Shown piece after piece: positions 9,644 to 27,846 of a stretch of 64,000 bases of DNA; position 1 is the stretch's first letter, and each line of letters begins with the position of its first letter. This DNA is from Neisseria sp. oral taxon 014 str. F0314 (GTDB lineage: Bacteria > Pseudomonadota > Gammaproteobacteria > Burkholderiales > Neisseriaceae): contig NZ_CP040504.1 of NCBI RefSeq assembly GCF_005886145.1, positions 1,612,001 through 1,676,000 on the forward strand. The letters run 5' to 3'. The notes under the pieces were generated by a model. That model worked only from the letters and a program-made list of their open reading frames with translations, did not search any database and had not been told where the DNA came from. The position numbers were made by a program, and so were the translations under genes.

Positions 9644-10468
9644 TCAACCGAACGACCTACCGCCATAGCTGCGTTCTTCTTGCATTTGCGGCGTATTTTG
9701 GGCGGTTTCTTGCTGCTGGCGGTTTTCTTTTAAGGCTTCTGCCTGTTCGGCACGGAAATTTGCCACTACATCGGGATTTTCTGCCAAGGCTTTGGTGGCA
9801 AATGTGCCGTCGGTGTCGTTTTTCAAACCTTGAATAAGGGCTTGGAGTTTGTCGGCTGGAGAGTTGTTTTCTTTTGTATTTTCGTTTTGTTCTAAATTAT
9901 CTAATCTGTCCTTAATTTCAATATCCCAATTAGGCGTGCCATACCCCTTAATTGAAGGATGATTTAAATTATATTGTTTTTCTCTGACAGTTGTTCCAGA
10001 ACCATCGCGTGGTTTGGCACTTGTATTTCCTTCTATCGTGTAAACAATCCCTTTTTCCAAATCCACATCGGTAACAACGCCAGTATGATTAACAGTTCTA
10101 GTTTTGTCTTTTGTAGGTAAGAGGAAAAAAATCTGGTCTCCCTTTTGGGGTGTATAATTTGCCGAATCATTCCACCCCCCAATTTTTTGATAATTATTTT
10201 TACTATTTTCTGTTCTTGCGGAAAATCCCCCAATCATTTGTCTTGCATTTTGTTTACCAAAAGATTCTTCCATAACATAATCAACATACATATCGCACCA
10301 AAATTGTCCTTGTAGTCCATAGTGCGCACCAAAAATGGTTATGTCTTTGCCTTTTTCTGTATAGCCGTTATATTTCCTTAAGTTTTCAATATAATCATTA
10401 ATTACTTGATCTTTAATATATTCTTTCGAATTTTCTTGATTGCTTACTTTAAATTCATTTGCTGCCAT
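9644..10468 (-). CDS. CHAP-domain putative antibacterial effector with Gln-rich C-terminal tail
   Basis: The 274-residue product has no signal peptide. Residues about 45-165 look like a CHAP/NlpC-type amidase or endopeptidase: Cys58 in GQFWCDMYVDYV, His128 in VNHTGVVTDVD, and IEGNTS at 146-150, in the order of a Cys-His-polar triad. Residues 205-274 form a tail, Gln-rich and ending SYGGRSFG, that matches the end of the GH19 protein at 27001. The ATG at 10468 (MAANEFK) has AAAGGA before it; in-frame ATGs at 10474 and 10510 are alternatives. It follows a lipoprotein gene and a VirD4 gene. Probable cell-wall-degrading effector (inference). Confidence 0.8.
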   Translation of the reverse strand: MAANEFKVSNQENSKEYIKDQVINDYIENLRKYNGYTEKGKDITIFGAHYGLQGQFWCDMYVDYVMEESFGKQNARQMIGGFSARTENSKNNYQKIGGWNDSANYTPQKGDQIFFLLPTKDKTRTVNHTGVVTDVDLEKGIVYTIEGNTSAKPRDGSGTTVREKQYNLNHPSIKGYGTPNWDIEIKDRLDNLEQNENTKENNSPADKLQALIQGLKNDTDGTFATKALAENPDVVANFRAEQAEALKENRQQQETAQNTPQMQEERSYGGRSFG

Positions 10469-10534
10469 TTTCATTCCTTTGAAATAATGGTTGAAATCTA
10501 AATAATACAACGGCTACCTGATGATTTTTAGGGA

Positions 10535-11017
10535 TTAAAATAATTCCTGTGACTGTTTGTTGATTTTAAAGCCATGTTTATCACGGTTAGTACAAGTTAG
10601 CGTTGATTCGCTTGCTGTGCATTGCCAACCATCACCTTTAATACTTTCCCCTGATTTTAATATTGTTGCCCTAGGGTTAAATGGAAAATCGCTACTACAA
10701 ACCAGACTGGCTTTTCCATTTTGTCCCACAAAAAACGATTCACCCCATTCCAATTCACACTCACCGCGTGGCAAAATCGGCTCATTCTCAATTCGGGTAA
10801 AACACTCTACGCCTATTACTTCTGCATCTTCAAGCTGACTTTCTGCTCCACAATAAATTGTGCCATTGGCAGCACGAAAGTTAAATTTGTAGTTCGTTGT
10901 TTCATTCATATATGAATCGTTTATTGTAGAAACAGGCTCTTTTGCATTCACTGTACAACCTGCCGAAAAAATAGAAAGTGCAATAGTTGGGATAATGAGT
11001 AATTTTTTATATTGCAT
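10535..11017 (-). CDS. Lipoprotein, candidate immunity protein for the CHAP effector
   Basis: The chosen ATG (MQYKKLLIIPTIALSIFSAGC) has AAGGAG eight bases upstream. A signal peptide ends in the lipobox SAGC. The mature part has six further cysteines, enough for three disulfides, so it acts outside the cytoplasm. The C-terminal pattern (LVCSSDFPF, WQCTASESTLTC, GFKINKQSQELF) resembles the DUF6636 family (from memory). A periplasmic lipoprotein directly upstream of a peptidoglycan hydrolase effector is the arrangement of X-T4SS immunity proteins, hence the proposed role (inference). Length 160 residues. Confidence 0.75.
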   Translation of the reverse strand: MQYKKLLIIPTIALSIFSAGCTVNAKEPVSTINDSYMNETTNYKFNFRAANGTIYCGAESQLEDAEVIGVECFTRIENEPILPRGECELEWGESFFVGQNGKASLVCSSDFPFNPRATILKSGESIKGDGWQCTASESTLTCTNRDKHGFKINKQSQELF

Positions 11018-11105
11018 AATAACTCCTTGAGTAGCTGTGATTTTGTAGCATTGTAGCAATAAATCCTTAAAATGAAAAACACGGCTAAAATTGACCGCAC
11101 TTTGT

Positions 11106-11147
11106 AGGCCGTCTGAAACTATATCGGGATACGGTTTCAGACGGCCT
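11106..11147. terminator. DUS hairpin downstream of the VirD4-type gene
   Basis: AGGCCGTCTGAAAC faces GTTTCAGACGGCCT, 25 bases past the coupling protein stop. It separates that gene from the lipoprotein-CHAP pair. Confidence 0.65.
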
Positions 11148-11172
11148 TAAATATTTTATAGAAATTATATGG

Positions 11173-12831
11173 TTAAGCAGATACGTTTAATCTCGGCACT
11201 TTAATCTTGCCCTGTAATCGTTTTGTAAACGAACTATCTTTATAATAGCGGATTTTTTCACACATCACAGGATGGGATAGACCCTCATACACGAAAATCT
11301 CTTTATCTTCCGGCATTGCCTTTAATTCTTGTGGAAGCATCAATGCCCGACGTTCGTCACCAATACTGACACTTTTCTCCCTGCCTTTAGTTACATTGGA
11401 TTTTTTTACTGATGTATAACCGAGCATTTCCGAGTAATCCGCTGCATCTTGTTGCTCGCGCGGGGTGTAGAGGATTTGTAAGGCATGGTTGGTTACCATA
11501 GTCCGGCTTACTTCTTTTCCATATACAGAATCTAATTGGGCTAAAGATTGAATGATCGGAAATAGCCTAATGTTGTAACCTGCGATATAACTGACTGATT
11601 TGGCAATAATATCTACAGCACCTATGGAAGTAAATTCATCCATCAATAAAAGGCACTGATACCGCAGTTCTTTATTGCTTTGAGGAAGTTCTTTGGTATT
11701 AAGGTTAATCAGTTGGCTAAAGAATAGATTAATGATTAATCGGGCTTCAGCCAGTTTGTTTGGTTGGATACCGATATAGATAGTCATCTTTTGTTTGCGT
11801 ACATCGGTAAGCAGAAAATCATCCGCACTGGTTGCCGCATCTACAATAGGGTTCAGCCAAGGAAGTAGCGGTTCCTTGAAAGTAGCCATAATATTGCCGA
11901 ATGTTTCTTCAGGTTGTCCGAGTATTCCGGCAAAAGCAGATTTACACTGTTTGCTGACAAAAGGAGCCTCTGATATTTCCCGAAAATAATCCCGCAAATC
12001 CCTGCCGTCACCGTTTGACAAACGATATAAAGCGCCTATCGAACAAAGAGTAGAACCGTCCTGTTTGCGTTTATCCAAGAGAAATAAAGCAAGTGCCATA
12101 AAAACATTTTGAGCCTGATTGAGCCAGAATCTGTCTTTCGGATTTTCTCCTGTCGGATAAAGCATATTGGCGATACTGGATAGGTCCGAAATCCGAAAAT
12201 TCGGGTCTTCAGAAACATAGCTCAAAGGATTCCAACGGTGTGTACATTGGTCTTCGGCAAAAGGATTAAACAAGTATACTTTTTGCCCATGCTTTTCACG
12301 AAAGCCGCTGGTTAAGTCAAAGTTTTCCTGTTTGATGTCCAGTACAACCATAGAACCCTGATAACTAAGCAAGTTAGGAATAACGATACCCACCCCCTTG
12401 CCTGAACGGGTAGGAGCAGCCAATAAAGCAAATTGCTGTCCACTATAGAAAAGATACTGATTACCCTGCTTACCGACAACAATTGAATTTTCAGTAGATT
12501 TGAAGAAACCGGCCTTCTGCAATTCAGATGATTTGGCGAATCTAGCTTTACCGTATAAGTTTTCTTCTTTGCGCACTAAAAGCGCTGCCGCGAAGAAAAT
12601 CAACAGCAGGAACGGGGCTAAGAAACCTATAAATGCGGATATTTTGATTTTTGTTCCATGGACAGGATGGTCGCCATAGTGATACAGATACTGAAATATG
12701 GTCGTAAATTCGGTACTTTGGTGGGAATGCACCCATGTTAGCAATATCCAGCCGGATAAATAAATACCTGCGAAGAGTGCGACCAGCAGTCCCAGCAATA
12801 CTAAAAATATTTTATGTTTTAAAGAAATCAT
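11173..12831 (-). CDS. virD4: VirD4/TraG-type type IV secretion coupling protein
   Basis: The 552-residue protein has two N-terminal membrane helices (about 8-31 and 64-86) and then a cytoplasmic ATPase domain. Walker A is AAPTRSGKGVG (138-148) and Walker B is CLLLMDEFTSIG, with an all-alpha insert (KDRFWLNQAQNVFMALALFLLD) between them. VirD4 proteins hexamerise at the inner membrane and hand substrates to a type IV secretion channel. No relaxase, virB gene or oriT is visible nearby. It is flanked by effector-like genes, so it more likely recruits effectors than DNA (inference). Composition is AT-rich compared with the core genes. Confidence 0.92.
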   Translation of the reverse strand: MISLKHKIFLVLLGLLVALFAGIYLSGWILLTWVHSHQSTEFTTIFQYLYHYGDHPVHGTKIKISAFIGFLAPFLLLIFFAAALLVRKEENLYGKARFAKSSELQKAGFFKSTENSIVVGKQGNQYLFYSGQQFALLAAPTRSGKGVGIVIPNLLSYQGSMVVLDIKQENFDLTSGFREKHGQKVYLFNPFAEDQCTHRWNPLSYVSEDPNFRISDLSSIANMLYPTGENPKDRFWLNQAQNVFMALALFLLDKRKQDGSTLCSIGALYRLSNGDGRDLRDYFREISEAPFVSKQCKSAFAGILGQPEETFGNIMATFKEPLLPWLNPIVDAATSADDFLLTDVRKQKMTIYIGIQPNKLAEARLIINLFFSQLINLNTKELPQSNKELRYQCLLLMDEFTSIGAVDIIAKSVSYIAGYNIRLFPIIQSLAQLDSVYGKEVSRTMVTNHALQILYTPREQQDAADYSEMLGYTSVKKSNVTKGREKSVSIGDERRALMLPQELKAMPEDKEIFVYEGLSHPVMCEKIRYYKDSSFTKRLQGKIKVPRLNVSA

Positions 12832-13014
12832 AATGTTAGATAAATTTGAGAGGTCAAGACAAGATGTTATAAAGACGTTGTTTTCATTTGAACCGAAACG
12901 TTCGTCATTTTATCAAAAATATCTCAGCCATATATAAAATTTAAGGATTGTACAGTGTGAGAAAAGCTGACAAAGAGGTTGTATTTTTCGTAATGGTTGT
13001 TTCCCGTTATAAAA
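12832..13014. other. AT-rich spacer upstream of the VirD4-type gene
   Basis: No gene or convincing promoter can be supported here. It lies between the last immunity gene terminator and the coupling protein start. Confidence 0.4.
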
Positions 13015-13046
13015 AGGCCGTCTGAAAAATATTTTTCAGACGGCCT
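13015..13046. terminator. DUS hairpin closing cassette E
   Basis: Near-perfect palindrome AGGCCGTCTGAAAAAT/ATTTTTCAGACGGCCT directly after the immunity stop. The same structure ends every cassette in the array. Confidence 0.7.
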
Positions 13047-13051
13047 CAAGT

Positions 13052-13465
13052 TCAATCGAAGAAGTCGGTAATCAGTTCTTTTTTTTCATACACCAAATCA
13101 ACTTCATCTTTTTTAACTAATTTTTCATAACCGTATTTATCTACTCTTTTAAAGTTTAATTTATCCATAAGGGTAAGGTTATTGTTTCCATTTAGGAGAT
13201 ATTCGTTCTCACTTGCCCACTTAATCCAAAATTCATATCCTTGATATAGGGCATAAGTGCTTATTTCATAGACTTCTTCGATTTCGGAAGGGGGGACCAT
13301 TTTAAAGAAGATTCGTGGAATTAAATGTTTCTCTGGATCTTTTTCAGTAAAGCCATTGTCTAAATCCAGTGGACTATTTGAAATTAATCTTGCGTATCCG
13401 CTTCGTTTTAATAAACGATACTCTTTTCCAGAATAAATTGTATATGTATTGTTTTTAATAAACAT
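13052..13465 (-). CDS. Immunity-type protein, cassette E
   Basis: The ATG (MFIKNNTYTIYSGKEYRLL) has AGGAG seven bases upstream. The 137-residue cytoplasmic protein is one of five paralogues here, with a common N-terminus (YTxYxGKEYR), a middle PPSEIEEVYEISTYALYQGY and an identical end, KKELITDFFD. Its closest relative in the array is cassette C (both have WIKWASENEYLL and LNFKRVDKYGYEKLVKK). It lies right after a decayed toxin tip. Proposed to neutralise the matching toxin tip (inference from context); no family name recognised. Confidence 0.75.
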   Translation of the reverse strand: MFIKNNTYTIYSGKEYRLLKRSGYARLISNSPLDLDNGFTEKDPEKHLIPRIFFKMVPPSEIEEVYEISTYALYQGYEFWIKWASENEYLLNGNNNLTLMDKLNFKRVDKYGYEKLVKKDEVDLVYEKKELITDFFD

Positions 13466-13475
13466 TTTTGTTCTC

Positions 13476-13696
13476 CTATTTGGATTCATGACGGATGAAT
13501 TTCATTTGATCAGAATCGAATACGGCACCTTTTTGTCTTTTCCCTTTCACTACTATCCAGATAACGGAACCGTGTTCAGGATATTGATTTTTAGCATTAA
13601 CTTCAAATTCGGGCAGGATTTCATCGGAACGGCAGGCTATGAATCCGTTTTAACGTAATTGTTTATCGTCTGCTTCAGACCGTAAGTAAGTCGCAT
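13476..13696 (-). pseudogene. Decayed toxin tip, cassette E
   Basis: It opens MRLTYGLKQTINN like cassette D, then jumps to TLNGF with about 55 codons missing. An extra A in the run at the junction shifts the frame. The rest reads ACRSDEILPEFEVNAKNQYP and then a cassette C-type tail ending KFIRHESK. It cannot encode a whole tip. It overlaps nothing and ends 11 bases before its immunity ATG. Confidence 0.75.
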
Positions 13697-13705
13697 AAAC
13701 TATAA

Positions 13706-13737
13706 AGGCCGTTTGAAAGATATTTTTCAGACGGCCT
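13706..13737. terminator. DUS-like hairpin closing cassette D
   Basis: One arm is a mutated DUS (GGCCGTTTGAAA), the other TTTTCAGACGGCC. Confidence 0.65.
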
Positions 13738-13742
13738 CAAGT

Positions 13743-14153
13743 TTAATCGAAGAAGTCGGTAATCAGTTCTTTTTTCTCATACACCAAATCGACTTCATCC
13801 TTGGGAACGGTTTTTTCGTATCCGAATTTGTCGATACGGGTAAAATTGAATTTTTCGACTAAAGGGCTGTAATCGGATACCAAAACGTAATTTTCACCGT
13901 CGTCATAGGTAATATGAAATTCGAAACCGTGATAAAGACAGAAGATACTGATTTCGTAAACGTCCCCTATTTCGGAAGGGGAGACCATTTTAAAGAAAAT
14001 TCTAGGATTTAGATTCTTTTCAGGCTCCCTCTCCAAAAATCCATCGGCAATATCTTTGGGGTCGTTTGATATTAAGCGTGCAAAACCATCCCGCCTTAAA
14101 ACACGATATTCTTTACCTAAATAAGTAGTATATATGCCTTTTTTAATAGCCAT
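13743..14153 (-). CDS. Immunity-type protein, cassette D
   Basis: The ATG giving MAIKKGIYTTYLGKEYRVL has AAAGGA upstream; an earlier in-frame ATG lies inside the toxin-tip end. 136 residues. The second half (CLYHGFEFHITYDDGENYVLV, FTRIDKFGYEKTVPKDEVDL) is nearly identical to cassette B and different from C and E. It ends KKELITDFFD like its paralogues. It follows the one intact silent toxin tip, separated by 13 bases. Probable cytoplasmic antitoxin (inference). Confidence 0.75.
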   Translation of the reverse strand: MAIKKGIYTTYLGKEYRVLRRDGFARLISNDPKDIADGFLEREPEKNLNPRIFFKMVSPSEIGDVYEISIFCLYHGFEFHITYDDGENYVLVSDYSPLVEKFNFTRIDKFGYEKTVPKDEVDLVYEKKELITDFFD

Positions 14154-14166
14154 TTTTAAATCCTTT

Positions 14167-14550
14167 CTATTCCTTATTCTTATAAGGGACAAATTGCAGT
14201 TTCTCTTCATCGAACATCAACATTTCTCTTTTAATGCCATTTTCTATTACAGAAATTGTCGACCCATGTTCGGGATAGCGTTCCTGTTTATATGGGATTT
14301 TGTATTCGGGCAGAATCTCATCCGAGCGGCAGGCTGTGAAACCGTTTAACGTACAAGGAAGGTTATCCGTATGTTGTCCTCCGAAACGCTCCCCTCTCGG
14401 AATATCTATATGATTTTTTGTGCCGGTTAGCCTGCCTTCGAATATCAAATAACGGTCCTGCCCGTCGGCCAATGCCTGCGTAAATCTTGAACCTTCGTAA
14501 TCCAAAGCAAAATTGTTTATCGTCTGCTTCAGACCGTAAGTAAATCGCAT
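14167..14550 (-). CDS. Orphan toxin tip, intact silent cassette D
   Basis: The open frame of 127 codons matches the last 126 residues of the full toxin at 16580, starting at LKQTINNFALDYEGSRF. It keeps the conserved core IFEGRL, IPRGERFGG, LPCTLNGF and CRSDEILPEYK, then has its own end (EEKLQFVPYKNKE). It lacks the delivery part of the toxin and has no evident ribosome binding site, so it looks like a donor for recombination rather than an expressed gene. The catalytic class of this tip is not recognised. The immunity gene follows 13 bases later. Confidence 0.7.
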   Translation of the reverse strand: MRFTYGLKQTINNFALDYEGSRFTQALADGQDRYLIFEGRLTGTKNHIDIPRGERFGGQHTDNLPCTLNGFTACRSDEILPEYKIPYKQERYPEHGSTISVIENGIKREMLMFDEEKLQFVPYKNKE

Positions 14551-14559
14551 AAACTATAA

Positions 14560-14591
14560 AGGCCGTCTGAAAAATATTTTTCAGACGGCCT
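14560..14591. terminator. DUS hairpin closing cassette C
   Basis: AGGCCGTCTGAAAAAT paired with ATTTTTCAGACGGCCT, directly after the immunity stop. Confidence 0.7.
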
Positions 14592-14596
14592 CAAGT

Positions 14597-15004
14597 TCAA
14601 TCGAAGAAGTCGGTAATCAGTTCTTTTTTCTCATACACTAAATCAACTTCGTCTTTTTTAACTAATTTTTCATAACCGTATTTATCTACTCTTTTAAAGT
14701 TTAATTTATCCATAAGGGTAAGGTTATTGTTTCCATCTAGGAGATATTCGTTCTCACTTGCCCACTTAATCCAAAATTCATATCCTTGATATAGGGCATA
14801 AGTGCTTATTTCATAGACTTCCTCGATTTCGGAAGGGGAAACAGTTTTAGTTAATATAGGGATAGTATGATTTCTTTCGGGCCTATATTCTTTAAAACCA
14901 TTAGATAAATCTTTCACATCATTAGAAATGAGTTCGGCCATTCCTTCTGATAAAAATATTCTATATTCTTTTCGATTATAAATGGCATATGTATCATTTC
15001 TCAT
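14597..15004 (-). CDS. Immunity-type protein, cassette C
   Basis: The 135-residue product starts MRNDTYAIYNRKEYRIF and shares the distinctive second half of cassette E (YALYQGYEFWIKWASENEYLL). Its ATG overlaps the end of the preceding toxin tip by 11 bases, the tight coupling expected of toxin-immunity pairs. The middle (VSPSEIEEVYEIS) and the end KKELITDFFD are shared by the family. Probably cytoplasmic. Confidence 0.75.
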   Translation of the reverse strand: MRNDTYAIYNRKEYRIFLSEGMAELISNDVKDLSNGFKEYRPERNHTIPILTKTVSPSEIEEVYEISTYALYQGYEFWIKWASENEYLLDGNNNLTLMDKLNFKRVDKYGYEKLVKKDEVDLVYEKKELITDFFD

Positions 15005-15362
15005 TATTTATTTCCTTATAAAAATTTTCAGCAGGTATAAATCTTTTTTCTATTCTATCGAATACGGCACCCTTTTGTCTTTTCCCTTTCACTACTATCC
15101 AGATAACGGAACCGTGTTCAGGATATTGATTTTTAGCATTAACTTCAAATTCGGGCAGGATTTCATCGGAACGGCAGGCTATGAATCCGTTTAACGTGCA
15201 AGGTGGGGGTGTTTCGTGGTTTCCACCAAATTTTTTTCCATATGGGATTTCGGTTTGTTCTGGTTTGGTCAGCTTGCCTTCAAATACCAAATATCTGTCT
15301 TTTCCCTCTTACAACGCTTTGGCATAGGCAGAGTTCGGGTAATCCAACGCCAGATTTTCGTG
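14994..15362 (-). pseudogene. Toxin tip with nonsense mutation, cassette C
   Basis: Reading from about 15360 gives ENLALDYPNSAYAKAL, then a TAA, then EGKDRYLVFEGKL and on to PCTLNGFIACRSDEILPEFE. The stop falls where the full toxin has ALADGQDRY, so a single nonsense codon breaks the tip. The last part (WIVVKGKRQKGAVFD) is the C/E subtype, unlike the A/B/D subtype (SVIENGIKRE). It overlaps the immunity start. Confidence 0.75.
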
Positions 15363-15393
15363 TTCTTTTCATAAATTGATTACATAAACCATA

Positions 15394-15425
15394 AGGCCGT
15401 CTGAAAAACATTTTTCAGACGGCCT
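15394..15425. terminator. DUS hairpin closing cassette B
   Basis: AGGCCGTCTGAAAAA facing TTTTTCAGACGGCCT after the cassette B immunity stop. Confidence 0.7.
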
Positions 15426-15430
15426 CAAGT

Positions 15431-15841
15431 TTAATCGAAGAAGTCGGTAATCAGTTCTTTTTTCTCATACACCAAATCGACTTCATCCTTGGGAACGGTT
15501 TTTTCGTATCCGAATTTGTCGATACGGGTAAAATTGAATTTTTCGACTAAAGGACTGTAATCGGATACCAAAACGTAATTTTCACCGTCGTCATAGGTAA
15601 TATGAAATTCGAAACCGTGATAAAGACAGAAGGTGCTGATTTCGTAAACGTCTCCTATTTCGGAAGGGGAGACCATTTTAAAGAAAATTCTAGGATTTAA
15701 ATTTTTCTCAGGTTTGTATTCAATAAAACCTTTATTTAAATCTTTTTCATCATTTGATATGATCTCATAATGATTTTCTATCCTAGCTATACGATATTCT
15801 TTTCCATAATATATAGTATATATTCCTGATTTAATACTCAT
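15431..15841 (-). CDS. Immunity-type protein, cassette B
   Basis: The 136-residue product starts MSIKSGIYTIYYGKEYRIA. From the middle onward (PRIFFKMVSPSEIGDVYEIS, CLYHGFEFHITYDDGENYVLV) it is almost identical to cassette D, while the first 40 residues differ. That mosaic pattern suggests recombination between cassettes. Ends KKELITDFFD. Located 12 bases after the decayed toxin tip of the same cassette. Confidence 0.75.
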   Translation of the reverse strand: MSIKSGIYTIYYGKEYRIARIENHYEIISNDEKDLNKGFIEYKPEKNLNPRIFFKMVSPSEIGDVYEISTFCLYHGFEFHITYDDGENYVLVSDYSPLVEKFNFTRIDKFGYEKTVPKDEVDLVYEKKELITDFFD

Positions 15842-15852
15842 TTAATTATCCT

Positions 15853-16126
15853 TCATTTAATACTTTGGAAAGGAACAAATTTCCCTTCTTTGCTATCGAA
15901 CATCAACATTTCTCTTTTAATGCCATTTTCTATTACAGAAATTGTCGACCCATGTTCGGGATAGCGTTCCTGTTTATATGGGATTTTGTATTCGGGCAGA
16001 ATCTCATCCGAGCGGCAGACTATGAAACCGTTTAACGTACAAGGAAGGTTATCCGTATGTTGTCCTCCGAAACGTTCTCCTCGCTTGCGTAATTTGTAAA
16101 GCAAAATTTTTTATTGTCTGCTTTGG
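15853..16126 (-). pseudogene. Decayed toxin tip, cassette B
   Basis: The start KQTIKNFAL matches the common tip entry point. The frame is then lost and the sequence resumes at RGERFGGQHTDNLPCTLNGF, so about 30 codons are missing. The end (SVIENGIKREMLMFDSKEGK) is of the A/B/D subtype. The deletion falls in the same region as that of cassette E. Confidence 0.75.
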
Positions 16127-16150
16127 ACCGTGAGTAAATCACATTAATAT

Positions 16151-16181
16151 AAAGGCCGTCTAAAGATTTCAGACGGCCTTT
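16151..16181. terminator. DUS-like hairpin after the active toxin-immunity pair
   Basis: AAAGGCCGTCT pairs with AGACGGCCTTT, 5 bases past the immunity stop; one arm has lost the final GAA of the DUS. Confidence 0.65.
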
Positions 16182-16185
16182 ATAG

Positions 16186-16596
16186 TTAATCAAAGAAATT
16201 TTCAATGAGTTTTTTCTTTTCGAAGATCAAGTCTAAATCTTCTTTTGAAACCTCCTTGTGGAATACTCCGAACTCATATTGGAAAAATCCCAATTTTTCA
16301 ACAAACACTTTATCTATGGTAGATAAGGTATATTTGCCATCATATTCATTTAAAACATAAAACTCAAACCCCTTATATATTGCAAAGGTTGAGATCTCAT
16401 AAACATCTCCTATTTCAGAAGGAGGAACCATTTTTATAAAGATTCTAGGATTATTATTTCCATCAGGGTCATATTCTATAAATCCATTACTTAAATCGGA
16501 TTCATCATTGGAGACCAAATTCGCTAATCCTTGATTATTCCATACTCTATATTCTTTTTTTAAGTATGTTGTATAGGTATCATTTCTTAATTTCAT
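16186..16596 (-). CDS. Immunity-type protein of the full-length toxin (cassette A)
   Basis: The 136-residue product starts MKLRNDTYTTYLKKEYRVW. It shares the family core (MVPPSEIGDVYEISTFAIYKG) but has the most divergent second half (LGFFQYEFGVFHKEVSKED) and ends KKKLIENFFD. Its start overlaps the toxin gene end by 17 bases, so translation is coupled. Being paired with the only complete toxin, it should be the immunity protein in use (inference). Confidence 0.8.
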   Translation of the reverse strand: MKLRNDTYTTYLKKEYRVWNNQGLANLVSNDESDLSNGFIEYDPDGNNNPRIFIKMVPPSEIGDVYEISTFAIYKGFEFYVLNEYDGKYTLSTIDKVFVEKLGFFQYEFGVFHKEVSKEDLDLIFEKKKLIENFFD

Positions 16597-18445
16597 TAAT
16601 CATCCTTTCATTTTTCATAGGGATAAATTGTTTTTTGTTTTTATCAAACATCAGTACTTCTCTTTTAATGCCATTTTCTATTACCGATATGGTCGCACCA
16701 TCGTCTGGATAACGAGCATTGGTAACTTTGTATTCGGGCAGAATTTCATCTGAGCGGCAGGCTATAAAACCGTTTAATGTACATGGAAGTCCGTCTTTAT
16801 AAGTTCCTTCAAAGCGGTGGCCTCTAGGAACACCTATTTCGTTTTGTGTTTGAATCAGCCTGCCTTCGAATATCAAATAACGGTCCTGCCCGTCGGCCAA
16901 TGCCTGCGTAAATCTCGAACCTTCGTAATCCAAAGCAAAATTGTCTATCGTCTGCTTCAGATTATGTCCGCTCAGGTGTGCCGTATCCGACTGTCGGGCG
17001 ATGAAACCGCCGATTTGGTTATTTCTGCCGCTGGCAAATCCTTCCAGATATTCGTAAGGCATGACTTTGGTAACCGTCGTCTTATCGTCGATCATCGGCA
17101 CATCGTCCCGTATGCGCTTCATCTGCCCGATCTGTTCCTGCGTCATGTCGTCCATATGGGTGCGGGTCAGGGCCTTAAAGTCTTCGAACGGCATATTCTC
17201 CCGCGCCAGCGACTCGGCCAGGTTTTTATAGGCAAAGCTGTCGGGAGACAGGTTTTTATCTTTTCCCCAATCGCCTATGTCCTGCAAGGTCTCGCGATAG
17301 AATTCCGCCTTGGCGCGGGCGGCGGTTTCTTCGGCGGCGTGCAGGGCCTTGCGGCGTAAAGCCATCCCGCCTTTGACCAGTCCCGCCCCGCCCACAAGCA
17401 ACGTGGCCGCATCGGTCAGCGGTTTGCTTTCTTCCACCGTCCGGTTCAGATCGGCATTGCCCACTGCTTCAGCCCAGCGCTCCGCACCGGCTTTCATGCT
17501 GTCCAGGCCGTCTGAAAGGTCGGTTTTCAGTTTGGCGGGATTGTCGATGTATTCCTGTGCGGAATCTTTGGTATGTTCCCATACCCGCGATAGGGTTTCC
17601 AATTGCGCGTCGGAACGCTCTTTGGCCATCCGGGCGTCGTCTTCGCTGCCTATGCCTATGTCTATGTCTAGGTGTTCGTAAGCGAAGAGGGAGGCTTTGT
17701 CGTAGGCGAGCGACGCGCCTTCCTTGGCTAGATTGCCTGCTCCGGTAATGCCTTCTCCGACGGATTCCGCTACACCCAAGGCCGCCCCGCCGACGGCGGT
17801 CGCCCCCTGCTTGAAGGTGCGGGTAATTTCGGAATCGTCCGCTTCGATTTTTAAGGCGTCCGCTAACGGTCTTTTGACATATTCTTCATAACCGTTGCGG
17901 ACGGGTGAGGTAAGGTTTTCTTCCAACCAGTCGCCGCTTTTGCCGATAGGGTTTTTTTCCTGCGTGATGCCGGACGGTGTTGCCGGATGGCTTCCTGTTT
18001 CCCCTGTGGACGGGGCGATCGCTTCCGTACTTGCGATAGTTACCGTCATTTCATATTTCCGGCTGCCTATTTCCACTTTCTCAACCCTCTGCTGGATAGG
18101 CTGCGGTTGTTCTTCTTTTCGGGAATGTTCGGGAAAGGGAACTTTGAACATGAAATGTTCGTTTACCCATCCGGCGATGTGCCGGTTGTCGTTGCTGACG
18201 AACATGCTGGTGATGTGGGGATCGGGACTTCGTGTTGCCGAAGCGGCGGCATGGGCGATTTGGTTTTTGAGTTCGAGCTGTTCGGGGCCTGAATAGCGGT
18301 TGAATACTTGGGCGACTTCGCTGTTTTTCCTGCTTTGGGCGTCTATGTCGTTGTAAAGCTGTCCGACCCGTTGCTCGTGAGACATTTCCTGCTGCTGCGG
18401 CTGGTTTTGCTCAAGATCCCGGTTACGGGAATGGCCTAAGTCCAT
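16580..18445 (-). CDS. Polymorphic toxin with exchangeable C-terminal tip
   Basis: The ATG has AAGGA upstream (AAGGATTACCAATG). The 621-residue product has no signal peptide. The N-terminal 110 residues (RVGQLYNDIDAQ, IAHAAASATRS, HITSMFVSNDNRHIAGWVN) recall, weakly, the XVIPCD secretion domain of X-T4SS effectors. A Gln/Glu/Pro-rich linker, small-residue hydrophobic stretches (about 215-240 and 345-360) and charged helices follow. From residue 496 (LKQTIDNFALDYEG, base 16960) it matches the silent tips downstream. The backbone is GC-richer than the tip, and a DUS lies inside it near 17510. Toxic activity not identified. Confidence 0.8.
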   Translation of the reverse strand: MDLGHSRNRDLEQNQPQQQEMSHEQRVGQLYNDIDAQSRKNSEVAQVFNRYSGPEQLELKNQIAHAAASATRSPDPHITSMFVSNDNRHIAGWVNEHFMFKVPFPEHSRKEEQPQPIQQRVEKVEIGSRKYEMTVTIASTEAIAPSTGETGSHPATPSGITQEKNPIGKSGDWLEENLTSPVRNGYEEYVKRPLADALKIEADDSEITRTFKQGATAVGGAALGVAESVGEGITGAGNLAKEGASLAYDKASLFAYEHLDIDIGIGSEDDARMAKERSDAQLETLSRVWEHTKDSAQEYIDNPAKLKTDLSDGLDSMKAGAERWAEAVGNADLNRTVEESKPLTDAATLLVGGAGLVKGGMALRRKALHAAEETAARAKAEFYRETLQDIGDWGKDKNLSPDSFAYKNLAESLARENMPFEDFKALTRTHMDDMTQEQIGQMKRIRDDVPMIDDKTTVTKVMPYEYLEGFASGRNNQIGGFIARQSDTAHLSGHNLKQTIDNFALDYEGSRFTQALADGQDRYLIFEGRLIQTQNEIGVPRGHRFEGTYKDGLPCTLNGFIACRSDEILPEYKVTNARYPDDGATISVIENGIKREVLMFDKNKKQFIPMKNERMINEIKK

Positions 18446-21157: not shown

Positions 21158-21195
21158 GGGAATGCCTGCGTCTGAAAAGGTTTCATTGTAGCAAA

Positions 21196-21226
21196 AGGCC
21201 GTCTGAAACAAAATTCAGACGGCCTT
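21196..21226. terminator. DUS hairpin upstream of mutS
   Basis: AAGGCCGTCTGAA facing TTCAGACGGCCTT, between mutS and the MscS-like remnant. Confidence 0.55.
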
Positions 21227-21227
21227 C

Positions 21228-21480
21228 CATTGTAAGACGGCGGATTCAGGCGTTTTGCAAAACGATATGTTACGTCGCGCTGCGGGAATGGGATGTTGAT
21301 GTCGGCCGCGCGCAATTTTTTGACAACCTGCCCGTTCAAATCGCATTGACCTGCGCGCGCCAGAGCGGCAGCGAGGATTTGTTAACGATGCTGTTGAGCA
21401 GCATGATTTCTTCGTCGGCATAGGTGTGCAGAAAAGTTGCGGCCGGCGAGGCGGTGGAAATCGAAACCGTTGAAATTTAT
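21228..21480 (-). pseudogene. Remnant of an MscS-family mechanosensitive channel gene
   Basis: One frame reads TFLHTYADEEIMLLNSIVNK and then hits a stop; the neighbouring frame carries on NGQVVKKLRAADINIPFPQRDVTYRF. The last part is the typical MscS end (I-PFPQRDV). A frameshift and the loss of all upstream membrane segments make it a relic. Family assignment rests mainly on the PFPQRD motif. Confidence 0.55.
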
Positions 21481-21521
21481 GGTTGGTCCTGAACGGGCGT
21501 TTGAAAGCTTTTGCCGTGATA

Positions 21522-21562
21522 AGGCCGTCTGAAACGGTATTTCGGTTTCAGACGGCCTTTTT
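21522..21562. terminator. DUS hairpin downstream of the thiamine-binding-type gene
   Basis: AAGGCCGTCTGAAAC faces GTTTCAGACGGCCTTTTTT, 40 bases past the stop. Confidence 0.65.
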
Positions 21563-21603
21563 TGACGGGTGGGAAACAATGGTTTTCCCGCTGCGCGGGG
21601 CGG

Positions 21604-22608: not shown

Positions 22609-22687
22609 TATTTCTTCCTTTCTTATTGTGTAGATAAGGCAGCCATCATACCATACCGCCTCTGCCGTTTTTAATCCGGAATTAACG

Positions 22688-23335
22688 ATGAACGAAACCG
22701 TTTGGCTGTTCGACCTCGACAACACGCTGCACAACGCCGATGCGGGCATTTTCTACCTCATCAACCGCCGCATGACCGAATATCTGGCAGGCCGTCTGAA
22801 CCTGCCCGAAGAAGAAGCCTCGCGCCTCAGGCAGGATTACTGGCACCGCTACGGCGCCACGCTGGCCGGACTGCAAATCCACCATCCTGAAATCGATGTC
22901 GGCGACTTTCTGCGCCAATCCCACCTCCTTGATGAAATTTTAGCCAAACTCACGCCGATTGAAGGCACCGAAGAAACTTTAGGCCGTCTGAAAGGTCGAA
23001 AAACAGTATTCTCGAATGGTCCGTCGTTTTACGTCCGCGCCGTCGTCAACGCCCTCGGGTTGGAAAAATATTTCGACCTGTTGGCGGGCACCGAAGACTT
23101 CGGCCTGCTCTACAAACCCGACCGGCACGCCTATTTGAATGTCTGTCGCCTGCTGGCAACACATCCCGCCGCCTGCATCATGGTGGACGACAGCGCCGAC
23201 AACCTGCACGCCGCCAAAATGCTGGGTATGCGGACCGTATGGTTCGGCCGACACGCGCATCCGCTGCCCTTTACCGACGCCGCCGTTTCCGGCATGGCCG
23301 CACTGGCAGAGTGGGGCGGCAATGTCGGGCCGTAA
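22688..23335 (+). CDS. HAD-family pyrimidine 5'-nucleotidase-like phosphatase
   Basis: The 215-residue protein begins with HAD motif I, WLFDLDNTLHNA (nucleophile Asp in DLDNT). Motif II is KTVFSNGP and motif IV is CIMVDDSADNL. The pattern fits the SDT1-like HAD group, which dephosphorylates pyrimidine mononucleotides or other small phosphates. Two DUS copies lie inside the coding sequence (near 22793 and 22983), read as GRL(K). Divergent from the thiamine-binding-type gene. Confidence 0.85.
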   Translation: MNETVWLFDLDNTLHNADAGIFYLINRRMTEYLAGRLNLPEEEASRLRQDYWHRYGATLAGLQIHHPEIDVGDFLRQSHLLDEILAKLTPIEGTEETLGRLKGRKTVFSNGPSFYVRAVVNALGLEKYFDLLAGTEDFGLLYKPDRHAYLNVCRLLATHPAACIMVDDSADNLHAAKMLGMRTVWFGRHAHPLPFTDAAVSGMAALAEWGGNVGP

Positions 23336-23417
23336 GGCATCGGAAACGGGGCCGCCACTATGAATCGATACGCAAATTCATTACAATTTGAATATTATCT
23401 GTTTAAGGAAACCGAAA

Positions 23418-23690
23418 ATGCGCTATTTAGCAATGATTCTGGCCGCTGCCGCGCTGGCAGGCTGCACATGGGAGACCTACCAAAATGCCGACGGCCACAC
23501 CTCACTGCGGCAGAAATACGAAAAAGGCACGCGCGTCTATTATCAGGACGGCACCTACTCCCGCAACATGCGCTATAACCAGTTCCGCCCCGAACAACAT
23601 GCCATCCGGCCTGCGATGAACGCCGAACGGGACGTACGCGGTACAAACTGGCAAAAACCCCAAAAACAAAACGAAACAACCGCCGAATAA
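23418..23690 (+). CDS. Small neisserial lipoprotein
   Basis: The chosen ATG (MRYLAMILAAAALAGCTWE) has AAGGAAA upstream; an ATG 30 bases earlier has none. The lipobox LAGC follows a short signal. The mature 75 residues are polar, Asn/Gln/Arg-rich (DGTYSRNMRYNQFRPEQH), and probably periplasmic. Function unknown. A DUS hairpin follows. It sits between the HAD gene and glmU, in the same direction as both. Confidence 0.75.
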   Translation: MRYLAMILAAAALAGCTWETYQNADGHTSLRQKYEKGTRVYYQDGTYSRNMRYNQFRPEQHAIRPAMNAERDVRGTNWQKPQKQNETTAE

Positions 23691-23710
23691 CACAGCGTAG
23701 ACGCAACCGT

Positions 23711-23743
23711 AACGCCGTCTGAAACCCGTTTTCAGACGGCCTC
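23711..23743. terminator. DUS hairpin before glmU
   Basis: CGCCGTCTGAAACCCGTTTTCAGACGGCCT-type hairpin, 20 bases past the lipoprotein stop. One arm reads CGCCGTCTGAAA instead of GGCCGTCTGAAA. Confidence 0.6.
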
Positions 23744-23782
23744 TGTCCATCTAGCGAAATTCCATCAGCCGAAAGAATCCCC

Positions 23783-25159
23783 ATGTCCACAACACCCCTC
23801 AACATCGTCATTCTCGCCGCCGGCAAAGGCACGCGCATGTATTCCAAAATGCCCAAAGTGCTGCACCGCATCGGCGGCAAGCCCATGGTCGAGCGCGTTA
23901 TCGACACCGCCGCCGCCCTGAATCCGCAAAACATCTGCGTCGTCATCGGACACGGCAAAGACCAAGTTTTAGACACCGTCAAACGCGACGTCGTCTGGGT
24001 CGAACAAACCGAACAACTCGGCACCGGCCACGCCGTCAAAACCGCCCTGCCCCACCTTTCCGCCGAAGGCCGCACGCTGGTACTGTACGGCGACGTTCCC
24101 CTGATTGACACCGCCACCCTCGAAACCCTGCTCGAAGCCGCCGGCAGCGAAGTCGGACTGTTGACCGACGTTCCCGCCGACCCGACAGGCTTGGGCCGCA
24201 TCATCCGCGACAGCCAAGGCAGCGTAACCGCCATCGTCGAAGAAAAAGACGCCGACGCCGCCCAAAAAGCCGTCCGCGAAATCAACACAGGCATCCTCGT
24301 CCTGCCCAACGCCAAACTCGAAAACTGGCTGAACAGTCTCTCCAGCAACAACGCCCAAGGCGAATACTACCTGACCGACCTCATCGCCAAAGCCGTTGCC
24401 GACGGCATCAAAGTCCATCCCGTCCAAGTGCGCGCCTCCCACCTCGCCGCCGGCGTGAACAACAAACTCCAGCTTGCCGAACTCGAACGCATCTTCCAAA
24501 CCGAACAGGCGCAAGAATTGCTCAAAGCAGGCGTCACCCTGCGCGACCCCGCCCGTTTTGATTTACGAGGCCGTCTGAAACACGGACAAGACGTCGTGAT
24601 TGACGTCAACGTCGTCCTCGAAGGCGACATCGAAATCGGCGACAACGTCGAAATCGGCGCAAACTGCGTCATTAAAAACGCCAAAATCGGCGCAAACAGC
24701 AAAATCGCCCCCTTCTCCCACCTCGAAGACTGCGAAGTCGGACAAAACAACCAAATCGGCCCCTACGCCCGCCTGCGTCCGCAAGCCCGCCTTTCAGACG
24801 ACGTACACGTCGGCAACTTCGTCGAAATCAAAAATGCCGCCATCGGCAAAGGTACCAAAGCCAACCACCTCACCTACATCGGCGACGCCGAAGTCGGCAG
24901 CAAAACCAACTTCGGCGCAGGTACGATTATTGCCAACTACGACGGCGTGAACAAATACAAAACCGTCATCGGCGACGAAGTCCGTATCGGTTCCAACTGC
25001 GTCTTAGTCGCCCCTGTCAAACTCGGCAACAAAGTTACAACCGGCGCAGGCAGCACGATTACCCGCAATGTCGAAGACAACAAACTCGCCCTCGCCCGCG
25101 CCCGCCAAACCGTGATCGAAGGCTGGGTACGTCCGGAAAAAGGGGATAAAAAGTTGTGA
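23783..25159 (+). CDS. glmU: Bifunctional N-acetylglucosamine-1-phosphate uridyltransferase / glucosamine-1-phosphate acetyltransferase GlmU
   Basis: GlmU makes UDP-GlcNAc from GlcN-1-P, feeding peptidoglycan and LOS. The 458-residue protein starts with a pyrophosphorylase domain ([19 protein letters not shown]). A left-handed beta helix follows from about residue 255 ([21 protein letters not shown]). The acetyltransferase end includes [18 protein letters not shown]. An accessory island starts 20 bases after its stop, separating it from glmS, the enzyme two steps earlier in the same pathway. Confidence 0.97.
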
Positions 25160-25179
25160 TTTTATTTTTGGGATAAATA

Positions 25180-25707
25180 ATGGAAAAACATACTGATATT
25201 GAAAGAGCTCGGAATCTAATTATTGAAACATCTGGATTAATGGCGGCATATAAAGACAACAGCGAAAAAATAGTTAATAATGTTCGACATGAATTAGACA
25301 AATCTTTAAACGAACAACGTCGTATGATTATCCAAATGATCAGAGAAGAAATAACAGATGAAATCTCTCAAACTGTTCATAGTTATGTGGAAGATATGGA
25401 GGAAACCCGTAATCGAATGAGAGAACAAGTCAGAGAATTTAACAGTTATCTGCATAAGGTACAGCAGGAGAATAATAAAATTTCTTCCCGTTCTGTATTG
25501 ATTACATCGCTAACATTGGCAACGTTGGTTGTTGGCGGAATTGCATTGTTCTGGTTTTATGCAAATGCTCTCCAGAGTAAGAAGCTCGATGCAGATATGA
25601 TTACACGGATTAATCGGGCGGATATTGTCCGTTGCGAAAACGAATTATGTGCAAGGACAAGTAAGGCTGGAGAAAATGGTTACAGAGTAATTCAGAAACG
25701 ATACTAG
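25180..25707 (+). CDS. Coiled-coil membrane protein, intact member of an effector-island family
   Basis: The 175-residue product has an N-terminal charged coiled coil (about 25-110), one membrane helix (VLITSLTLATLVVGGIALFW, about 108-127) and a small C-terminal domain (LDADMITRINRADIVRCENELC). Family not recognised with certainty; the C-terminal part recalls small proteins of plasmid mobilisation loci (weak). Degenerate copies lie at 26165 and at 9400-9574 beside the other effector island. Composition is AT-rich, unlike glmU just upstream. RBS is weak (GGGATAAATAATG). Confidence 0.7.
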   Translation: MEKHTDIERARNLIIETSGLMAAYKDNSEKIVNNVRHELDKSLNEQRRMIIQMIREEITDEISQTVHSYVEDMEETRNRMREQVREFNSYLHKVQQENNKISSRSVLITSLTLATLVVGGIALFWFYANALQSKKLDADMITRINRADIVRCENELCARTSKAGENGYRVIQKRY

Positions 25708-25727
25708 TAATATTTGGAAGGTAAATA

Positions 25728-26129
25728 ATGAAAAAACTTATCGCAATATTTTTATTAATTCCTTTGGCAGCATATTCCAATGCTCGCCCATTATCTTTTT
25801 CAGGAACTTGGTTATATACGGATCAGGTTGGAGATACCGTTGGAGGGAAAGAATTGGTCCTTAAACAAACGGGTAATTTAGTTACAGGGATATGGAATGA
25901 GGGAATTTCGACAGGTAGCGGGGGAAGTGGAAAACTAAAAGGATATGTGAAGGGAAATAAACTATTTTTAAATTATTGTTCTGATGAAGGAAATAATTGG
26001 TATAAATCTTGTCCTGAATATGAAAATAATGGAAGTTATTTTATTAAAAAAAATAATAAAATTATTGAATATGATATGGAAGATAATAAATTATATAAAA
26101 AAGGCAATGAGTTTATTTTAACTAAATAA
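25728..26129 (+). CDS. Small exported protein, candidate immunity protein
   Basis: The ATG follows GGAAGGTAAATA. A signal peptide (MKKLIAIFLLIPLAAYSNA) leads to a mature part of about 114 residues with beta-strand character (FSGTWLYTDQVG, KELVLKQTGNLVTGIW, GKLKGYVKGNKLFLNYC). It has two cysteines and a Lys/Asn-rich end. AT-rich codon use. No family name recognised. Being exported and next to a peptidoglycan hydrolase effector, it could protect the periplasm (inference). Confidence 0.7.
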   Translation: MKKLIAIFLLIPLAAYSNARPLSFSGTWLYTDQVGDTVGGKELVLKQTGNLVTGIWNEGISTGSGGSGKLKGYVKGNKLFLNYCSDEGNNWYKSCPEYENNGSYFIKKNNKIIEYDMEDNKLYKKGNEFILTK

Positions 26130-26164
26130 GGAATATGAAATGGTAGATTCAACCAACATATAAT

Positions 26165-26442
26165 TACCTTTGAAAAGTACAGGAAGGAGATAATAAAATT
26201 TCTTCCCGGTCTGTATGGGTTACATTACTAACATTGGCGACCTTAGTTATCGGGGGAACTGCATTGGGTTGGTTTTATCGAGTGTTATTCAGAGTGAGAA
26301 GCTCGATGCAGATATGGTTACACGGATTAGCCAAGCAGATATTGTCCGTTGTGGAAACGACTTATACGCGAGGGCAAATAAGGCTGGAGAGAATGGGTAT
26401 AGAGTTATTAAAAAACGATGATAACTTATTTGAGCTAAATAA
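26165..26442 (+). pseudogene. Degenerate second copy of the 25180 gene, 3' part only
   Basis: Starting at TACAGGAAGGAGATAATAAA the DNA closely follows the 3' half of the 25180 gene (ISSRSV, LTLATLVIGG, LGWFY), then changes frame. The second frame gives SEKLDADMVTRISQADIVRC and YRVIKKR. The 5' half and an intact frame are missing. It indicates a tandem duplication in the island followed by decay. Confidence 0.75.
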
Positions 26443-26460
26443 ATAGTGAGGATTTTAAAC

Positions 26461-26985
26461 GTGGTAAAGTATTTCTTATATGGATTTTCAAGTTTTTTAT
26501 TTTTAACAAATGCTTATGCCGGAAGTCAGCCTGAAAGTCTTGCCAAGATAATTTATGAAAAAGAAATAGATTTAAATCAAGATAGAATAAAGGATAAATT
26601 AGTTATTGAGGAAAACACGGAAGGTAAAAGAAATTTAAAAATCCTTGTTGAAGATTCTAAAAAACAGTGGAATACAGTTATTGAAAACCGTAATATGGTT
26701 TTATGCAAAGACTGTGGAGGAGTGAGTACAGGAGATCCTTTGGTTTCGGTTGAAGCAAAAAGAAATGTGTTTGAAATCACACAAGAAGGAGGAAGTCGTG
26801 AAAGATGGACTTCTGTATATAGATTTCAATATTCACCTAAATTAAGTACATGGATTTTGAGAAAAGCGAGATTGAACGTGTATGATACGGTAACTGGCAA
26901 GAATGAGATAAGAAGGAAAAGTATAAATAGTTCAAAACCAGTAAAACTTCAAGATTTCAATTATGATGAATTTTTTTATAATTAA
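26461..26985 (+). CDS. Exported protein, candidate immunity protein for the GH19 effector
   Basis: GTG at 26461 is the best start: GAGGA lies nine bases upstream and it gives a clean signal peptide (VVKYFLYGFSSFLFLTNAYA). A GTG at 26446 is also in frame. The mature part, about 153 residues, has a repeated beta pattern (DLNQDRIKDKLVIEEN, NLKILVEDSKKQWNTVI) and two close cysteines (LCKDCGG). It ends 15 bases before the GH19 gene, so the two are probably one transcript. Immunity role inferred from order and export signal. Confidence 0.72.
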   Translation: MVKYFLYGFSSFLFLTNAYAGSQPESLAKIIYEKEIDLNQDRIKDKLVIEENTEGKRNLKILVEDSKKQWNTVIENRNMVLCKDCGGVSTGDPLVSVEAKRNVFEITQEGGSRERWTSVYRFQYSPKLSTWILRKARLNVYDTVTGKNEIRRKSINSSKPVKLQDFNYDEFFYN

Positions 26986-27000
26986 GTAGAGCGAGTCTAT

Positions 27001-27846
27001 ATGAATAATAATACGAAATTGATGCATGAGGAAAAAATCCTTCAAGAGGCTATGTCGAATGGAATTTCTTCGAGAAAAGAACTGGCCAATCTTCTTGCTC
27101 AGGTTGCTCATGAATCTGACAATTTTAGTACTATGGAAGAAAATTTAAATTATTCTGCTAAAAGATTAGCTCAATTATGGCCCAAAAGATATGCAGATGG
27201 AAACCATAATCCAAATGAAAAAGCTCTGAATATTGCTAAAAACCCTGAAAAAATTGCTAATGATGTGTACTCCAATAGAATGGGAAATGGTAATTCTAAT
27301 TCGGGAGATGGTTACCGTTATCGAGGTAGAGGATATATTCAATTAACTGGGCGCAGTAATTATGAAATGGCTACGAAAGAATTGCAGATCGATCTAATTA
27401 ATAAACCAGAATTAGCCGCAACTTCAGAAGTTGCGGCTAAAATAGCTATTTTATATTGGGAAAAAAGAGTTCCGGATTCTCACAAAGAGAATGTACGACA
27501 AGCTACAAAATATATTAATGGCGGTTTAAATGGTTTGGCAGATAGACAAAATAAGTATGATGAGTATTATCAAAAACTAACTCCTGAATATTTAGATAAA
27601 ATTCAAAAAGGGCAGCAACATTCATCAAACGCACAATACGATGATTTTAGTGCATTAGTTAGCAATCTGATCAATGATAAAGACGGTTCGTTTACCAAAC
27701 AGTTGTTAGCAGACAATAAAGATATCGTTGATGCTTTTAATGCCAAAGTTCAGGAGAAAATAAAGCAAGAAGAACAACAAACTATTGCCCAAGAAGCACA
27801 ACGGGAAGTAGTTGAGAAAAGTTTTGGTGGCCGTTCTTTTAGTTAG
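27001..27846 (+). CDS. GH19 lysozyme/chitinase-like putative effector with Gln-rich C-terminal tail
   Basis: Residues 1-200 match the glycoside hydrolase 19 fold: LLAQVAHESDNF (catalytic Glu38), a second acidic site near Glu46, and the signature RYRGRGYIQLTGRSNY at 106-121. Such domains cut peptidoglycan or chitin glycans. There is no signal peptide. Residues 213-281 form a tail (FSALVSNLINDKDGSF, Gln-rich, ending SFGGRSFS) that matches the tail of the CHAP protein at 9644. The shared tail on two unrelated hydrolases suggests a secretion signal (inference). Length 281 residues; weak RBS. Confidence 0.85.
   Translation: MNNNTKLMHEEKILQEAMSNGISSRKELANLLAQVAHESDNFSTMEENLNYSAKRLAQLWPKRYADGNHNPNEKALNIAKNPEKIANDVYSNRMGNGNSNSGDGYRYRGRGYIQLTGRSNYEMATKELQIDLINKPELAATSEVAAKIAILYWEKRVPDSHKENVRQATKYINGGLNGLADRQNKYDEYYQKLTPEYLDKIQKGQQHSSNAQYDDFSALVSNLINDKDGSFTKQLLADNKDIVDAFNAKVQEKIKQEEQQTIAQEAQREVVEKSFGGRSFS

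Follow-up and report, generated by a model that had tools for sequence, protein, structure and literature searches.

The window analysed here is a stretch of 64,000 nucleotides from Neisseria sp. oral taxon 014 str. F0314 (contig NZ_CP040504.1, positions 1,612,001 to 1,676,000), in which two toxin-like proteins, one with a CHAP domain and one with a GH19 domain, end in the same C-terminal tail. An earlier note, made from the letters of this stretch, had proposed that the tail is a common secretion or recruitment signal. The analysis confirms the tail, finds it to be modular, and links it to a type IV secretion system (T4SS) of the bacteria-killing kind. The genes and features on which this rests are the following, with coordinates counted from the first letter of the window.

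9644-10468, minus strand: CHAP-domain protein with tail, 274 amino acids (aa)
9647-9865, minus strand: C-terminal tail of the CHAP protein
11173-12831, minus strand: VirD4 coupling protein, the sole PF02534 match of the genome
27001-27846, plus strand: GH19-domain protein with tail, 281 aa
27628-27843, plus strand: C-terminal tail of the GH19 protein

Both catalytic domains score above the curated Pfam cut-offs (CHAP, PF05257, E 3.2e-8; GH19, PF00182, E 1.4e-9). The last 73 residues of the two proteins are 41% identical (pairwise E 2e-13), and the next best stretch outside the tails reaches only E 0.46, which bears out the description of a shared tail on unrelated catalytic parts. One correction concerns the strand of the CHAP gene: the plus strand at 9644-10468 is full of stops, and the gene reads on the minus strand. 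The earlier note had also denied both proteins a signal peptide; neither has a hydrophobic N-terminus, as read from the sequence with no signal-peptide program run.

A profile (A1) built from three tails, those of the CHAP protein, the GH19 protein and a protein encoded near the virB locus, gave seven matches across the genome of 2.50 Mb, with E values from 2.9e-41 to 2.3e-18 and all in stop-free open frames; this is a seven-copy family far beyond chance. Three of its N-terminal modules are GH19, CHAP and an RTX-repeat protein that matches a metallopeptidase below threshold; the other four have no Pfam family above cut-off. Across 83 Neisseriaceae genomes the tail occurs in six, all of the window's genus, in 7, 6, 4, 4, 3 and 2 copies. 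A larger tail profile returned the same 26 places, with its further matches at E >= 0.03. In a sample of the order, 2 of 399 genomes carry the tail, both again of the window's genus. Database searches with the three tails returned 10, 28 and 93 proteins, of which only three are organism-named, all Neisseria. Together these 131 proteins and 25 of the genomic loci make 156 tailed proteins in 14 unrelated N-terminal module families; since the set was selected by tail, its presence in 156/156 is by construction, which does not apply to its C-terminal position or to the number of modules. The tail ends no more than three residues from the C-terminus in 154 of the 156, and unrelated modules bear tails up to 95% identical. 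Pfam assignments among them include GH19, CHAP, NlpC/P60, a VgrG3-like C-terminal domain, and DUF6792 with a sub-threshold lipase match; some module names rest on sequence likeness.

The tail is 72-76 residues long. In an alignment (A3) of 25 of the 26 genomic matches, a conserved core is kept across diverse sequences, with a front part around N-D-x-D-G-[ST]. The excluded match (L025, in genome G022; G and L numbers designate genomes and loci) is a frameshifted NlpC/P60-like tail effector whose upstream gene resembles the neighbour of L028. An AlphaFold2 model of the GH19 protein from 13 sequences is poor (mean pLDDT 51, pTM 0.31) and carries little weight here; it places helices at residues 212-224, 230-237 and 240-273 and no strands in the tail, with block pLDDT of 42-79 over 211-280.

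The secretion machine and the distribution of the tail

Judged by its predicted gene products, the genome has a Xanthomonas-like bacteria-killing T4SS (X-T4SS). The system is chromosomal, with the virB locus (L002, L003; minus strand, some 70 to 85 kb to the left of the window's start) and VirD4 both on the single 2.50 Mb contig. Pfam supports VirB1 (SLT), VirB2, VirB3, VirB4, VirB6, VirB8, VirB10 and VirB11, and VirB9 is likewise present; VirB5, with no Pfam match, is assigned by position alone, and the other eleven of VirB1-11 plus VirD4 are supported. By eye, VirB6 seems to be encoded in more than one copy. VirB7 is a lipoprotein-like protein of 141 aa whose match to X. citri VirB7 (6gyb, E 3.7e-25) spans residues 7-134, nearly its whole length; going by this match, VirB7 probably carries an N0 domain at its C-terminus. 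A VirB7 with an N0 domain is one X-T4SS criterion of Sgro et al. 2019, who already list X-T4SSs of Neisseria (PMC6536674), and PMC7643975 describes a VirB/D system in N. subflava KU1003-02; these and the other papers cited here enter through excerpts of their text. In the window, VirD4 is followed by a candidate immunity gene and then by the CHAP gene.

The VirD4 proteins termed X-type here share 61% identity or more along almost their entire length. Eight of the 83 genomes have an intact X-type VirD4, namely G037, G045, G056 and all but one of the six tail genomes. Thus the tail occurs in 5/8 genomes with and 1/75 without it (Fisher p 1.1e-5, relatedness not corrected); a background rate computed along with this test, 3/47 open frames, includes spurious frames and both effectors. 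The sixth tail genome, G011, retains a 54-residue VirD4 end and a VirB6-like piece (L101, by eye), and we read its vir locus as a decayed one. At L101 the VirD4 end lies in one frame with the apparent start of an NlpC/P60 effector, amid VirB6-like pieces. This distribution agrees with the secretion or recruitment signal proposed in the earlier note.

Among the findings that the note had named as speaking against a secretion signal are a tail found mostly in phage endolysins and a tail in genomes lacking any T4SS. Only one of the six tail genomes is without an intact T4SS, and remnants are left in it. Of 50,697 phage records none matches the GH19 tail; 872 match the GH19 protein, none covering 80% of it, and we rejected a phage endolysin origin of the tail on these grounds. 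No match to the CHAP tail was found in plasmid records. Among viral contigs, 20 pattern matches gave none confirmed as tail, a weak test because the same method found nothing in genome contigs (5 and 18 matches, none confirmed) though a whole-genome search finds tails in five further species. A conjugative T4SS as the tail's partner was likewise rejected, with the tail absent from all 28 genomes that have only a distant VirD4 and from 29 of the 34 that have any VirB9.

Tail and XVIPCD on shared modules

The usual C-terminal signal of X-T4SS effectors is the XVIPCD (PF20410, X-Tfes_XVIPCD), which neither the CHAP nor the GH19 protein matches at E up to 1. Over the 83 genomes PF20410 gave a single match above its cut-off, which is the one XVIPCD effector of the window's own genome. 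Those ranking next, as far as E 0.0024, come without exception from X-type VirD4 genomes, and weaker ones are scattered. From 36 matches at E<=1 in X-type VirD4 genomes we extracted 26 XVIPCD proteins, 17 of which went into a Neisseria XVIPCD profile (A7) and 24 into a comparison of modules (L074 and L076, below 180 aa, were excluded). The 17-row profile found 35 places in 7/83 genomes (own genome 1, G015 2, G019 1, G022 7, G032 6, G037 13, G045 5), and these seven are all the same-genus genomes with an intact X-type VirD4. They overlap the tail genomes, and therefore both signal classes coexist in five genomes. In the PDB the profile matches TfcB (7r6s, E 2.1e-5) and 9p3h (E 9.3e-4).

Five modules bear either the tail or an XVIPCD: GH19, the RTX-metallopeptidase, the lipase, the L026 type and the L030 type. 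The sharpest case pairs the metallopeptidase of the window's genome with L090 of G022; the two are 86% identical over 392 residues, and the tail switches near residue 393. The two classes also end alike. Gln accounts for 21.9% (25 tails) and 24.0% (26 XVIPCDs) of the final 30 residues, and G-x-S, a pattern picked after inspecting the sequences, falls within the last seven residues of 21/25 tails and 19/26 XVIPCDs (shuffled means 3.1 and 3.3). The motif blocks GLxRIDHV and FAVQGxxDPAHxRAHV, quoted for XVIPCDs in PMC10432156, were not seen by eye in the 25-row tail alignment, and the Neisseria XVIPCDs themselves keep them poorly. The earlier note had likewise described a Gln-rich end that recalls XVIPCDs, with no XVIPCD core motifs evident.

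The common place, modules, Gln-rich end and terminal G-x-S would also be expected if the tail were a shortened, strongly diverged XVIPCD that VirD4 sees in the same way. A comparison of the tail and XVIPCD profiles gives a P of about 4e-4 to 6e-4 in favour of this relation. The probability it assigns is only 28-36%, however, with the alignment largely in the compositionally biased, Gln-rich end. The tail is also short for an XVIPCD (about 75 against about 110 residues), finds no counterpart through PF20410, does not visibly contain the two blocks, and in the low-confidence model has helices and no strand. Neither PF20410 nor the profile comparison supports equating the tail with XVIPCD; the two may be remote homologues, and their front halves are not demonstrably related. 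The comparative evidence agrees with the new signal family beside XVIPCD that the earlier note had thought possible. We consider a diverged XVIPCD rather unlikely; it is a variant of the reading we prefer, of a second signal, and the odds of the two overlap.

The shared modules bear on another possibility, that the tail serves a different machine such as a type VI secretion system (T6SS) and stands beside the X-T4SS by descent. T6SSs are reported in some Neisseria (PMC10210955, PMC7643975), and one tailed module family matches the VgrG3-like C-terminal domain; but the same modules bear XVIPCD in X-T4SS genomes, and the tail is absent outside genomes with an intact or decayed X-type VirD4, which makes this very improbable.

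Immunity candidates and a companion protein

Around the two toxin-like genes lie the following smaller features.

9394-9522, minus strand: companion-gene fragment adjoining the CHAP gene (G000:C1:1621394-1621522)
10535-11059, minus strand: CHAP immunity candidate, DUF6636, lipoprotein-like; the open frame runs to 11059, and an ATG at 11017 gives 160 aa
25180-25707, plus strand: companion protein, 175 aa, with a charged N-terminal part, one hydrophobic segment and two Cys five apart
25728-26129, plus strand: probable orphan immunity gene, resembling by eye the neighbour of the L023-type effector of G032
26135-26418, plus strand: fragments of a second companion gene (G000:C1:1638135-1638418)
26446-26985, plus strand: GH19 immunity candidate, with an N-terminus that is signal-like by eye and missed by the crude score

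X-T4SS effectors (X-Tfes) are encoded with the gene for their immunity protein (X-Tfi) upstream (PMC6536674, section 14). Tail loci resemble such pairs, with a small, often lipoprotein-like gene directly upstream: 24 of 25 tail genes have a same-strand frame there, at a gap of -28 to 67 bp. By crude score 17/25 of these neighbours are signal- or lipoprotein-like, and those of the GH19 gene and L021 are so by eye; the neighbours of L030, L032 and L034 lack a signal, and none was found for L029.

The GH19 island lies between genes that we take, from sequence likeness, to be glmU and glmS. At the same site the relative G032 has a companion, an immunity gene and an L023-type effector (L097), and the window has a companion, an L023-type immunity gene, companion fragments and the GH19 pair. 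The GH19 tail is 93-96% identical to the tails of the L023-family proteins P0006 and P0005; in the comparison of the 156 tailed proteins the figure for P0005 is 94%. The simplest reading is that the toxin part has been exchanged here, leaving the gene at 25728-26129 as an orphan immunity gene. Such an exchange, like the near-identical tails on unrelated modules, is what one would expect of a tail that is a mere recombination handle for swapping toxin modules and plays no role in secretion. A handle of this kind would not account for a tail that tracks X-type VirD4, keeps a conserved core and swaps with XVIPCD, and we hold it to be highly improbable.

Relatives of the companion protein (25180-25707) occur in 7/83 genomes: in every tail genome and, besides these, in G037. 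The full-length copies, 13 in all, are each found in an effector locus: beside tail effectors, beside XVIPCD effectors (L035, L039, L086), and beside L091 and the broken L092, effectors of another tail type. The window's own genome has three further matches, all fragmentary: one adjoins the CHAP gene, and the other two belong to the GH19 island. The two Cys, five apart after the hydrophobic segment, are kept in 13/13 copies, and no family matches the companion above curated cut-off in Pfam or NCBIfam, nor any entry in the PDB. We regard this membrane-anchored protein as a candidate adaptor. The effectors at L091 (2439-3440) and L092 (2933-3340) each adjoin a companion and carry further tail types, neither the tail nor XVIPCD, that are also Gln-rich or charged with a similar ending.

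The tail might be read by this companion, which would then deliver effectors to the machine, in place of a direct reading by VirD4. Oka et al. 2022 (cited in PMC10432156) put forward an unidentified adaptor, and the companion's confinement to effector loci and, G037 apart, to tail genomes would suit one. Tail-linked companions are, moreover, closer to each other (mean identity 52.5%) than to XVIPCD-linked ones (24.3%), in a set with one row whose start codon is unassigned and three rows trimmed to the likely ATG. Set against this, companions also stand beside XVIPCD effectors, their clustering by tail class on a tree is weak and its branches long, and several tail effectors (the own metallopeptidase, L009, L010) have no companion seen alongside. 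Reading by the companion instead of VirD4 is, in our estimate, improbable, a shade more so than the diverged XVIPCD.

Two further features adjoin these loci. A transposase-like piece, presumably IS110-like, lies next to the CHAP locus (8723-9373, minus strand). On the other side, VirD4 is adjoined by a protein of 621 aa without a Pfam family (region 13052-18445, minus strand), after which come repeated pieces like its C-terminal end, accompanied by proteins of ~136 aa that share an end; the region looks like a polymorphic-toxin locus with spare cassettes. An XVIPCD at the N-terminus of the 621-aa protein, suspected by eye, was unsupported (hhalign probability 0.5).

Proposed role of the tail and comparison with known systems

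We conclude that the tail is probably a second C-terminal signal, one that targets toxins to the X-T4SS independently of XVIPCD. This builds on observations of five kinds: the tail family itself, its C-terminal place, its exchange with XVIPCD on the same modules, its co-occurrence with X-type VirD4, and the gene order. The earlier note's suggestion of a common secretion or recruitment signal is strengthened by the seven copies in a genome with an X-T4SS, by the many unrelated modules, by the restriction to genomes with an intact or decayed X-type VirD4, and by the swap with XVIPCD. In the mechanism we propose, the tail would stand in for the usual XVIPCD: effectors with antibacterial activity, among them CHAP and GH19 proteins, would be synthesised in the cytoplasm and passed by the tail to the cell's own Xanthomonas-like T4SS by way of VirD4, whose gene neighbours the CHAP locus. 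The front of the tail around N-D-x-D-G-[ST] would be the recognition part, and the Gln-rich end with its final G-x-S, in which the two signal classes resemble each other, the translocation part. The enzymes would cut peptidoglycan or other targets in the victim's periplasm, and the directly upstream genes would protect the producer.

Several points weigh against this reading. Three genomes (G037, G045, G056) have an X-type VirD4 without the tail; the tail genome G011 has no VirB9 and no VirB4; and the co-occurrence of tail and VirD4 rests on few, related genomes. The 24 of 25 upstream frames stand without a control rate for Neisseria genes, and the G-x-S pattern was chosen after the fact. We infer VirD4 binding and secretion, as we do killing and immunity. 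In X. euvesicatoria, finally, an XVIPCD and contact with VirD4 were insufficient for secretion by the T4SS only (PMC10432156), and therefore such signals are not the whole story.

A more general scheme, which we offer tentatively as somewhat less than an even bet, is that the signal for X-T4SS export is made up of two parts that can be separated: a Gln-rich end with a final G-x-S, common to all, and a front half that can be exchanged. The classic front would have been replaced in Neisseria, toxin by toxin, by the short N-D-x-D-G module, to be read by VirD4 directly or via the new membrane-anchored companion family.

If the tail is a second signal, effector lists based on XVIPCD miss most effectors here, where one XVIPCD match stands against seven tails. 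Published lists were built with XVIPCD profiles (PMC10989847), and the text available of a 2024 paper states that all X-Tfes contain the XVIPCD (PMC10933484); effector-like proteins without XVIPCD (PMC10989847) and a reported T4SS-linked secretion of a relaxase without XVIPCD (PMC10432156) cut against that view. Near-identical toxins with different tails offer a direct route to what the coupling protein reads and to which part drives transport, and the companion family is a concrete candidate for the postulated adaptor. The excerpts covered of the X-T4SS literature, which also took in PMC6759196 and PMC12857230, with the figures and supplements of Sgro et al. 2019 excepted, contain no second tail for X-T4SS effectors. 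The machine and the type of effector are known, and the tail signal and the companion appear new within the material searched.

The closest known systems set off what is particular here. The Neisseria X-T4SS of PMC6536674 and the N. subflava KU1003-02 VirB/D system of PMC7643975 are the same machine, with a virB locus split into segments and an X. citri-type VirB7; in the text consulted, these papers name XVIPCD as the signal or leave the role open. Atypical T4SS effector-like proteins without XVIPCD (PMC10989847) are likewise relatives of X-T4SS effectors that lack the domain, but they are described there as homologs without it, with no replacing tail named in the portion consulted. The XVIPCD itself resembles the tail in its C-terminal position, in occurring in X-T4SS genomes on toxins whose immunity gene lies upstream, and in a Gln-rich end, which in Neisseria finishes in G-x-S in both; the tail differs in being shorter, in a front half not demonstrably related, and in matching no PF20410. 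Among effectors, the window's GH19 protein has the same GH19 domain as the X-T4SS effectors TfcB of Stenotrophomonas maltophilia (7r6s) and XAC2609 of X. citri. TfcB, its best solved relative (E 3.6e-41, residues 9-206), has an XVIPCD at its C-terminus (PMC11253643), and the window protein has none; a GH19-XVIPCD protein of G037 (L078) aligns to TfcB over residues 5-324 (E 6e-50), and the window's GH19 protein only over 9-206.

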